Of a DNA stretch of 47,875 nucleotides, positions 16,023-18,021 are shown one piece after another; the first letter of the stretch is position 1; each line of letters opens with the position of its first letter. Below the pieces are notes generated by a model. The model was not told where the DNA came from. It made no database searches and saw only the letters and a program-made list of their open reading frames with translations. The translations under genes and the position numbers were made by a program. The DNA comes from an uncultured Pelagibacteraceae bacterium (lineage in GTDB: Bacteria > Pseudomonadota > Alphaproteobacteria > Pelagibacterales > Pelagibacteraceae), in contig CACDUV010000004.1 of assembly GCA_902556065.1 (NCBI GenBank), forward strand, positions 1 through 47,875. Direction: 5' to 3'.

Positions 16023-17351
16023 TTAACTAACCGCTTTTAAATTACCTTTTGACGATTTGTCTAAAGCTTGATCTAAATCGTTAATTATATCATCTATATG
16101 TTCTAAGCCAATACAAAGTCTAACATAACCAGGAGTTACACCTGAAGCAGCTAATTCATCTTCATTTAATTGACTATGTGTAGTTGTTGCTGGATGTATT
16201 GCTAAACTTCTAGCATCACCTATATTTGCAACGTGGTAGAACATTTTTAAAGCTTCAATAAACTTTTTACCAGCTTCAATACCACCAGCTAATTCAATAC
16301 CAACCAAAGCACCATTGCCATTTTTTAGATATTTTTTTGCCCGAACTGATATCTCTTCATTATGTTCAGTAGCATAAATTACTCTCTCAACAGCTTTATG
16401 GTTTTTTAAGTATTCAACCACTTTTGCAGCATTGTCACAATGTTGTTTCATTCTTAAAGCAACCGTTTCAAGTCCCTGTATAACACCAAAAGCATTATCT
16501 GGAGAAAGTGCTGATCCCAAATCTCTTAACAAGGTTACTCTTGCTCTTACTGCAAAAGCGACATTTGCTCCTGTTAATTCAGGTACAGCTTTACCCCAAA
16601 CAACACCTCCATAACTTGCATCTGGTTCATTAAATAGTGGCTGTCTTTTTGGGTCCGCTGTCCAATCAAAATTCCCGCCATCGATTAGTGCACCACCAAC
16701 CACCGTTCCATGACCTGCTATATATTTTGTTAAAGAATATACAACTACAGCAGCACCATGCTCAATTGGTTTACAAATTACAGGGGCAGCAGTGTTATCC
16801 AAAATTAATGGAATGTTATATTTTCTACCAATATCTGAAACCTCTTTAATTGGAAAAACTCTTAAATATGGATTTGGTAATGTCTCTCCATAAAAAGCTC
16901 TAGTTTTCTCGTCTATTGCTTTTTCAAAGTTTTTTGGATCAGAAGGATCTGCATATCTCACTTCTATTCCAAGCTTACTTAAAGTATGTGTAAATAAGGA
17001 TACTGTTCCACCATAAAGATCTGTAGAACTAATAATATTATCTCCAGCTTGTGCAACGTTTAATATTGCAAAAGTAGATGCAGTTTGACCAGATGCTACA
17101 CTTAAACTTGCAAGACCACCTTCTAGTGCTGCGATTCTTTTTTCCAGCACATCATTTGTTGGATTCATTATTCGTGTATAGATATTTCCAAACTCTTTTA
17201 ATGCGAATAAATTAGCTGCGTGTTCAGTGTTATTAAATTGATAAGAGGTTGTTCTATAAATAGGAACTGCTACTGAATTTGTAGCTGGATCGCTTCTGTA
17301 ATCTCCACCATGTATGGCAATTGTTTCTGGATTATTTCTTTTTTTAATCAT
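16023..17351 (-). CDS. metY: O-acetylhomoserine sulfhydrylase (O-acetylhomoserine/serine thiol-lyase)
   Basis: PLP enzyme of the Cys/Met metabolism family that puts sulfide onto O-acetylhomoserine to make homocysteine for methionine. The 442-residue length fits the MetY branch, longer than cystathionine synthases. Motifs are the TIAIHGG start, YTRIMNPT, VASGQTA, and the PLP lysine K209 in YSLTKYIAGHG. The gene is preceded by a tandem SAM-II/SAM-V riboswitch whose 3' end contains its GGAG ribosome site, so excess SAM should shut off its synthesis. Homoserine for the pathway comes from hom at 19.7 kb. Confidence 0.95.
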   Translation of the reverse strand: MIKKRNNPETIAIHGGDYRSDPATNSVAVPIYRTTSYQFNNTEHAANLFALKEFGNIYTRIMNPTNDVLEKRIAALEGGLASLSVASGQTASTFAILNVAQAGDNIISSTDLYGGTVSLFTHTLSKLGIEVRYADPSDPKNFEKAIDEKTRAFYGETLPNPYLRVFPIKEVSDIGRKYNIPLILDNTAAPVICKPIEHGAAVVVYSLTKYIAGHGTVVGGALIDGGNFDWTADPKRQPLFNEPDASYGGVVWGKAVPELTGANVAFAVRARVTLLRDLGSALSPDNAFGVIQGLETVALRMKQHCDNAAKVVEYLKNHKAVERVIYATEHNEEISVRAKKYLKNGNGALVGIELAGGIEAGKKFIEALKMFYHVANIGDARSLAIHPATTTHSQLNEDELAASGVTPGYVRLCIGLEHIDDIINDLDQALDKSSKGNLKAVS

Positions 17352-17355
17352 TTTT

Positions 17356-17411
17356 ACTCCTTTTTTAGTGCTTTTGCTTTATGCAAGGCGCACAATACAG
17401 TTCAAATGCCT
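17356..17411 (-). promoter_or_regulatory. SAM-V riboswitch aptamer, translational control of metY
   Basis: Read on the minus strand from 17411. AGGC (17411-17408) can pair with GCCU (17389-17386), GUGC (17393-17390) with GCAC (17371-17368), and UUGC (17386-17383) with GCAA (17377-17374). The motif CACUAAAAAAGGAG follows, and ACU/AGU (17369-17367/17358-17356) flank the GGAG Shine-Dalgarno 6 bases before the ATG. This matches my memory of the SAM-V consensus from Pelagibacter metY leaders, where SAM binding hides the ribosome site. Exact helix borders are my reading. Confidence 0.87.
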
Positions 17412-17435
17412 ACCGATTTTAAAATTTATGAAAAT

Positions 17436-17481
17436 TCCTTTTTAGCAGTTTCATGCCCGCAATAGGATCAAATCGGCAGCT
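17436..17481 (-). promoter_or_regulatory. SAM-II riboswitch aptamer upstream of SAM-V
   Basis: Read on the minus strand from 17481. UGCC (17478-17475) pairs with GGCA (17457-17454) for P1, and UCCU (17467-17464) with AGGA (17439-17436) for the pseudoknot. The conserved GAUUUGAUCC, UAUUGC and GCUAAAAAGG blocks of the SAM-II (metA) family are present. Tandem SAM-II then SAM-V before metY is known from Pelagibacter, where SAM-II is proposed to act on transcription. I see no GC-rich terminator stem between the two aptamers. Confidence 0.83.
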
Positions 17482-17524
17482 AATTTCTAGCATATTAGTT
17501 ATGTTTTACAAGCTAAATATAAAA

Positions 17525-17552
17525 TTGACTTTGAATAATTTAATAGTATTAA
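17525..17552 (+). promoter_or_regulatory. Possible sigma-70 promoter for rplM-rpsI
   Basis: TTGACT (17525-17530) and TATTAA (17547-17552) are 16 bp apart. The predicted start would lie only a few bases before the ATG at 17563, and no purine-rich ribosome site is visible in AATCCTCGCACA, so the transcript could be nearly leaderless. Tentative. Confidence 0.4.
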
Positions 17553-17562
17553 TCCTCGCACA

Positions 17563-18021
17563 ATGACAAAATTCACAAAAAAAGATCAAGTCACATCATC
17601 TTGGTACGAGATAGACGCAAAAAATGCAGTAGTTGGAAGATTAGCGACTGTTGTATCTAATATAATTAGAGGTAAAAACAAGACTACTTATACACCTCAT
17701 ATGGATGATGGTGATTTTGTCGTAGTAAAAAATATCGAACAAGCAAAATTCACTGGTAAGAAATTTCAAAATAAAAAGTACTATAGACATACAGGACACC
17801 CTGGTGGAATAAAAGTTACCACTCCAGAAAAACTTCATGAAAAAAAACCAGGAGAAACTTTGAAGCTAGCAGTTAAAAGAATGTTACCAGGTGGCGTTTT
17901 AGGTAGAAAACAACTAACAAAATTAAAAATTTACTCTGGAAGTGAGCATCCTCATGCTGCACAAAATCCAAAAGTTATAGAGTTAGATAAACTAAATAAT
18001 AAAAACATAGCAAGAAATTAA
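17563..18021 (+). CDS. rplM: 50S ribosomal protein L13
   Basis: Early-assembling 23S rRNA-binding protein, 152 residues. Signatures are SSWYEIDAKNAVVGRLATVVSNIIRG near the start (split here only by normal residues), DDGDFVVVKN, KKYYRHTGHPGG and AVKRMLPGGVLGRKQLTKLKIYSG. Divergent from metY. No clear Shine-Dalgarno sequence precedes the ATG. rpsI follows one base after the stop in the universal rplM-rpsI pair. Confidence 0.98.
   Translation: MTKFTKKDQVTSSWYEIDAKNAVVGRLATVVSNIIRGKNKTTYTPHMDDGDFVVVKNIEQAKFTGKKFQNKKYYRHTGHPGGIKVTTPEKLHEKKPGETLKLAVKRMLPGGVLGRKQLTKLKIYSGSEHPHAAQNPKVIELDKLNNKNIARN

Follow-up and report, generated by a model that had tools for sequence, protein, structure and literature searches.

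We propose, with a probability of roughly 0.6, that metY in the window (the whole stretch of 47,875 nucleotides that was analysed) is preceded by a terminator-less tandem of aptamers, in which a predicted helix abutting P1 of the SAM-V aptamer constitutes the anti-aptamer fold that a compact SAM-II-type element adopts without ligand. Comparison of related leaders gives good support to a conserved helix of 5-9 bp (8 bp in this leader). The window belongs to a SAR11 genome, of which it is one contig. Relatives of metY are encoded by 589 stretches (genome contigs); the best 80 of these 589 are 83-98% identical, and their titles name Pelagibacteraceae, Pelagibacter or Pelagibacterales. The following features of the leader and the gene are referred to below.

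17484 to 17511, minus strand: promoter-like conserved columns (TTG 17511-17509, TG 17492-17491, TAGAAA 17489-17484), a putative promoter
17437 to 17477, minus strand: compact SAM-II-type element with core motifs, P1 and P2
17477-17475 with 17457-17455, minus strand: P1 of the compact element, GCC with GGC
17466-17459 with 17446-17437, minus strand: P2 of the compact element, CC-UAUUGC with GCUAAAAAGG
17470 to 17477, minus strand: 5' strand of the putative anti-aptamer helix, GCCGAUUU; its conserved core, 17477-17473, is invariant in 157 of 157 metY leaders
17420 to 17436, minus strand: A+U-rich linker, devoid of a terminator and of AUG
17412 to 17419, minus strand: 3' strand of the putative anti-aptamer helix, AAAUCGGU; conserved core U[C/U]GG[U/C] at 17416-17412
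17420 to 17354, minus strand: SAM-V aptamer, RF01826, 86.9 bits (Rfam bounds; the 3' strand of the helix falls within them)
17411-17408 with 17389-17386, minus strand: SAM-V P1, AGGC with GCCU, the pair placement being read from the sequence
17361-17357, minus strand: Shine-Dalgarno sequence AGGAG, inside the RF01826 match
16023 to 17351, minus strand: metY, O-acetylhomoserine (thiol)-lyase, the regulated gene; open reading frame of 442 aa with its start at 17351

In the proposed mechanism, the mRNA would begin at or near G17477, and its 5'-terminal bases would provide P1 and the next core strand of the first aptamer. When about 56-68 nt have been transcribed, AUCGGU would emerge and capture those 5' bases in a helix of 5-9 bp. 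Early capture of SAM would keep the first aptamer in place, and without SAM the helix would form and shut this aptamer off. The helix strand follows the completed aptamer by about 20 nt, so that the reading of SAM would be co-transcriptional; we infer this timing, as well as any effect of the helix on SAM-V or on the mRNA. The helix would leave SAM-V P1 intact and lie against it, and the output could be either SAM-V folding tuned by stacking on P1, or the mRNA level, controlled through the state of the 5' end. In antiterminator and anti-aptamer riboswitches the ligand-free fold takes one strand of the aptamer P1. The metY leader would resemble them in this respect, but its output involves no recognisable intrinsic terminator and no direct mask of the Shine-Dalgarno sequence. 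A wider proposal, somewhat short of even odds, is that metY and mmuM mRNAs both start with a compact aptamer read during transcription, which a later strand resets, handing control over to SAM-V. If true, this would be a two-stage sensor of one metabolite, working without a terminator and placed before a metY SAM-V of known crystal structure, and it offers a way to couple two aptamers in the absence of termination.

SAR11 bacteria are among the most abundant cells in the ocean. They depend on reduced sulfur (PMC5069961), and during sulfur-limited exponential growth the level of metY mRNA was reported to rise 7.14-fold, that of its protein 2.24-fold, and that of mmuM mRNA 6.08-fold (PMC5069961). 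In the accessible text of the sources, metY and mmuM of HTCC1062 are given as controlled by SAM-V only, that is, by a translational switch, yet their mRNAs change several-fold; a testable reason for this change could lie in an additional SAM-II-type element and the conserved helix that competes with it. SAM-II is named only for bhmT and metX in the accessible part of PMC5069961, and that of PMC2704228 gives the metY gap as SAM-V only. In the literature searched, itself accessible in part, we found no description of a second element before the metY SAM-V, with the proviso that the 2009 SAM-V paper may mention one.

Increased abundance of metY and mmuM mRNAs upon sulfur limitation (PMC5069961), although SAM-V acts on translation, could also be accounted for if the helix is real and its main role lies in mRNA stability. 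In such a case the 5' end would be tied up at low SAM, and SAM binding would expose the A+U-rich linker to degradation. The lack of a detectable terminator in the window's metY leader is consistent with this explanation. On the other hand, the 5' end would be paired in both states, and promoter control or loss of translation could alter the mRNA level as well; we consider this alternative serious but rather unlikely. As for the terminator, the sequence-only reading had seen none between the aptamers, and the terminator scan of this leader agrees, with 0 terminator-like sites at 17340-17600; an intrinsic terminator following the first aptamer, as in described SAM-II/SAM-V tandems, was thus not found in the window's metY leader. 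T runs of at least 6 are present in 6 of the 157 linkers of metY leaders with the compact element. A small upstream open reading frame in the linker was considered and rejected, as 0 of these 157 linkers hold an ATG. A GGA resembling a Shine-Dalgarno sequence precedes the ATG-free linker in 150 of the 157 leaders, and the absence of ATG behind it possibly reflects selection against false starts.

The compact upstream element is unannotated by Rfam. It matches RF00521 (SAM-II) at 16.5 bits, below the gathering threshold of 36, and RF01826 (SAM-V) weakly, at 15.9 bits against a threshold of 41. However, RF00521 at E ≤ 2 gave no match in seven related loci, including the accepted bhmT SAM-II (L218, genome G443), so failure of the Rfam model on the compact element is uninformative. 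The GAUUU, UAUUGC and GCUAAA columns, which contain the binding-core residues, are invariant in 116 of 116 aligned leaders, an invariance that is inflated because the leaders were partly found by these very motifs. Residues of these kinds were reported to line the binding pocket (PMC11508383, PMC6061858), their match to the compact element being made by eye. The three P1 pairs are formed in 116, 115 and 115 of the 116 leaders (pair 17477-17455 is G-C in 114 and A-U in 2 of them), and four pairs of P2 in 115, 116, 116 and 116, which together give the H-type pseudoknot characteristic of the SAM-II/SAM-V superfamily; in L301, P1 appears to be lost. Conservation is not apparent for a candidate fourth P1 pair, 17478-17454, in which 43 of 100 cells are unpaired. 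With RF00521 the element shares the H-type pseudoknot core with GAUUU, UAUUGC and GCUAAA, but it differs in its P1 of 3 bp, its score below gathering and the lack of a detectable terminator. In its short P1 and similar core it is like SAM-V, from which it differs in that no start codon follows it and the stretch from P1 to GCUAAA is too short for a P3 hairpin. We regard the element as a compact, putatively SAM-binding aptamer of SAM-II type. Since the 5' strand of the helix consists of P1 (GCC) and the adjacent core strand, the element and the helix cannot coexist; their mutual exclusion, proposed already in the sequence-only reading, is well supported by this shared strand.

The complementarity from which the analysis started is exact. 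On the minus strand, 17479-17470 (CUGCCGAUUU) and 17419-17410 (AAAUCGGUAG) form ten contiguous pairs with a single G-U, 17477-17412, precisely as had been claimed. However, when the 141-nt leader was shuffled 300 times with its dinucleotides preserved, 34 of the shuffles contained a helix of at least 10 bp with at most one G-U, and folding of the whole leader gave z = -1.66. Neither folding energy nor longest-helix shuffles, tried as proof, alone singles out the helix. In a single sequence the ten-bp helix is not beyond chance; what does exceed chance, the five-pair core described below, emerges from comparison, by which the question had to be settled.

Duplicate removal among loci L001-L316 left 274 distinct leaders. 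Class C (the compact element and no terminator) comprises 157 metY and 49 mmuM leaders, class T (terminator GGUGGUUUUUUU) comprises 30 bhmT, 8 metY and 12 without a named gene, and class N (nothing recognised) comprises 14 metY and 2 without a named gene; two further metY leaders were too short to class. Two of the 14 leaders without a named gene (L066 and L294) are false anchors, L294 being an mmuM locus without a SAM-V match to the search pattern. In L234 and L283 the anchor missed the true P1, and their sequences lack the 3' motif too; L022, L028 and L066 were not captured in one step of the comparison, and L014 was left out of one metY comparison (108 of 109 leaders used) for an anchor shift. 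For the alignments, 116 of 164 leaders were kept after removal of near-identical metY rows, and the metY tree was made of 122 sequences (109 of class C, 12 of class N and 1 of class T). The seven mmuM rows bearing the motif in the covariation set were chosen by the 3' motif itself. Seven mmuM matches lay outside the mmuM set, one of which was later added as L319.

Among metY leaders of class C, pairs 17477-17412, 17476-17413, 17475-17414 and 17474-17415 form in 157 of 157, and 17473-17416 in 156 (the exception is L134), so that 784 of 785 cells of the five-pair core are paired. The next three pairs inward form in 133, 123 and 84 of the 157 leaders. Column information is 1.5-2.0 bits at 17412-17416 versus 0.3-1.4 at 17417-17426; the linker varies in sequence as well as in length, while the 3' strand at its end is conserved. 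The two outer pairs behave differently: 17478-17411 forms in 125 of 157 leaders and 17479-17410 in 104, with 125.4 and 104.0 expected if the columns were independent. Comparison thus bears out half of the ten-pair helix.

This outcome bears directly on the suggestion that the ten-bp helix breaks SAM-V P1, and that SAM binding upstream licenses SAM-V folding (a cooperative OFF switch). In the window both outer pairs can form, and the minimum-free-energy fold of the leader includes all ten. Across the 157 leaders, however, they occur no more often than independent columns predict, and A stands opposite A at 17478-17411 in 25 of them. Moreover, the predicted transcript start coincides with the outer bases or lies downstream of them. 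Promoter-like columns are present in nearly all metY leaders of class C (within one base, TTG in 155, TG in 157 and TA in 157 of 157), at offsets from 17477 of -34 to -32, -15/-14 and -12/-11, respectively, both TTG and TA being present in 155 of 157; in mmuM leaders of class C, TA is found at the same distance in 49 of 49, TTG in 19 and TG in 3. With the usual promoter spacing, transcription would start at about 17477. As a consensus sigma-70 scan reports no site on the minus strand at these columns, we infer the promoter and a start near 17477 (give or take about 2) from conservation and spacing. Such a start would leave 17479-17478 marginally in the RNA at best, or untranscribed.

In the crystallised RNA, SAM-V P1 consists of four pairs and begins at the 5' end (PMC6061858). 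The last base of the conserved helix is 17412, one before the first base of this P1 (17411), and on the metY tree position 17478 is free to vary, with 18 changes versus 8 at 17412. In ViennaRNA with default dangles, the helix and the SAM-V P1 hairpin were additive in five leaders; with dangle model 3, their combination was 0.8-1.8 kcal/mol worse than the sum in the same number of leaders, which is far from a clash. We think that model 3 credits no stacking between neighbouring outer helices, and we base no sign of coupling on it. Hence the expectation of the sequence-only reading that the helix would disturb SAM-V P1 is not supported, and with it the physical route by which SAM-II was to license SAM-V lost its support; the two aptamers may still be coupled through stacking or timing, or the mRNA may be affected. 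Breaking of P1 is improbable in our judgement, and the conserved helix probably excludes the upstream element and abuts SAM-V P1 without breaking it.

Covariation lends support to the predicted helix, but this support is thin. On the metY tree (109 leaders of class C), the 3' strand changed at least 8 times at 17412 and 2 times at 17415, always between T and C opposite G, and every change keeps the pairing; position 17417 underwent 13 changes among all four letters. With its unvarying 5' strand, metY cannot show two-sided change, which is visible in mmuM only. C-G is replaced by U-A at 17475-17414 in mmuM leaders L144 and L301, possibly as one event, and A-U is found at 17477-17412 in L141 and L219, where the P1 of the upstream element has changed from G-C to A-U too. 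Over the 116 aligned leaders, 579 of 580 core cells are paired, and the covariation score of 0.092 (0.084 for shuffles) was reached by 0 of 500 shuffles. Two cells with two-sided change were likewise found in 0 of 500, one pair with such a change in 24 of 500, and the count of pair types was unexceptional, as 490 of 500 shuffles had at least as many. A single slid register scores higher, namely +3 (0.107), in which two pairs remain. Without selection by the 3' motif, five mmuM leaders have a 5' strand other than GCCGA (L141, L144, L219, L301, L319), and four of them pair; in L319, whose SAM-V is degraded, there is no pairing at that place.

Folding up to the edge of P1, in a model that leaves pseudoknots and ligand outside, gave all five core pairs a probability above 0.5 in 147 of 154 distinct leaders; the seven misses include L217, where an insert shifted the anchor. 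For pairing of the linker with the A+U-rich 5' part, shuffled linkers gave 0.72 versus 0.87 for native ones. Folding of shuffled linkers was discarded as proof for individual leaders, its significance being weak: in only 33 of 142 metY leaders did at most 1 of 30 shuffled linkers reach the native value.

The distribution of the 3' motif provides another line of evidence. U[C/U]GG[U/C] lies just before SAM-V P1 in 156 of the 157 metY and 5 of the 49 mmuM leaders of class C, in 0 of 22 metY leaders of class T or N, and in 0 of 42 leaders of class T preceding bhmT or no named gene. It could be argued that this motif is a part of the metY-type SAM-V, for example an extension of its P1, and pairs with nothing upstream. 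The motif does abut P1, and an A follows the 3' strand of P1 in 42 of 156 leaders, 38 of them with T17412 opposite. However, no A is found there in the other 114, the crystallised P1 consists of four pairs (PMC6061858), and the 22 metY leaders that have SAM-V without the compact element lack the motif, which makes a single evolutionary contrast. A downstream partner of UCGGY was sought in the 57 nt from the start of SAM-V P1; no ACCGA or GCCGA occurs there in the 157 leaders, and a wobble-type RYYGR, nearly always GUUGA, is present in 36. We regard an origin of the motif in SAM-V itself as improbable. A reading of the inverted repeat as a protein-binding DNA operator is very hard to uphold, since despite the short intergenic region beside a promoter-like signal, the spacing from 17477 to 17412 varies over 56-68 nt, not in steps of 10-11 bp, and T at 17412 in 141 of 157 leaders breaks the DNA palindrome and keeps G-U in RNA.

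Returning to the anti-aptamer helix, its association with the compact element counts as one evolutionary event, because class C requires one change on the metY tree of 122 sequences; the hope of many independent associations of element and motif has thus failed. Among leaders with a genus code, the compact, terminator-less metY form was found only in the window's genus. A classic SAM-II, terminator and SAM-V layout, similar to that of bhmT, precedes metY in L220, L221, L222, L224 and L227 (genera g8/g9), and the same layout is found in L243 and L264 (genus g1). The compact form may be derived from it. The metY leader L217:265-327 (G443, presumed HTCC1062) holds the compact element and AUCGGU; G443 is equated with HTCC1062 on account of its three SAM-V positions, all of which lie within the intergenic coordinates given for metY, bhmT and mmuM in PMC2704228. 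In two surveys of SAR11 genomes, 216 of 399 and 207 of 397 had no SAM-V match at E ≤ 0.001, strict filters losing weak matches; in the former survey this was true of 26 of 57 genomes at least 90% complete, and incompleteness may not explain the missing SAM-V.

As in the SAM-II/SAM-V tandem of Pelagibacter ubique bhmT, a SAM-II-type element is followed here by SAM-V, and the intervening sequence can silence the first aptamer; the bhmT linker was reported to silence SAM-II in the full-length RNA (PMC11508383). In tandems of the bhmT type (50 leaders of class T), P1 of SAM-II is longer and a terminator with its U tract is present, unlike in the metY leader described here, with its P1 of 3 bp, no terminator and a competing strand placed against SAM-V P1. 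According to a review (PMC9481103), SAM-II always precedes a terminator in the 120 original tandems. SAM-II at metY is not odd in itself, as SAM_alpha was reported before metY in 26 of 30 genomes from Rhizobiales and Rhodobacterales, two alphaproteobacterial lineages other than SAR11 (PMC4239095).

A separate problem is posed by the mmuM leaders. In 42 of 49, the compact element with the same 5' strand is present and U[CU][GA]GU is absent (e.g. L215, L237-L241, L257 and L259), which counts against the proposed anti-aptamer reading; GCCGAUUUGAU is common to 42 of 42. AUCAA, complementary to UUGAU of the element, occurs in the last 25 nt of the linker in 40 of these 42 leaders, compared with 13.7% of shuffled 25-mers and 4 of 157 metY leaders of class C, and the aptamer strand pairs into the native linker above shuffled ones in 26 of 28 motif-less mmuM leaders. 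These two sequences may form a shifted anti-aptamer pairing, although it is only a lead, because the leaders are closely related. The mmuM leader L319 (G192) has a compact element, GCUGAUUUG, with a decayed SAM-V, and is possibly a switch being lost. Among leaders of class T, 33 of 50 (e.g. L029, L137 and L218) carry CUAAAGCG at the 3' end of SAM-II, followed by the complementary CGCUU[UC]AG in the terminator hairpin. This pair is likely to act as an antiterminator, and pairing of CUAAAGCG is a possible reason for inactivation of SAM-II by the bhmT linker.
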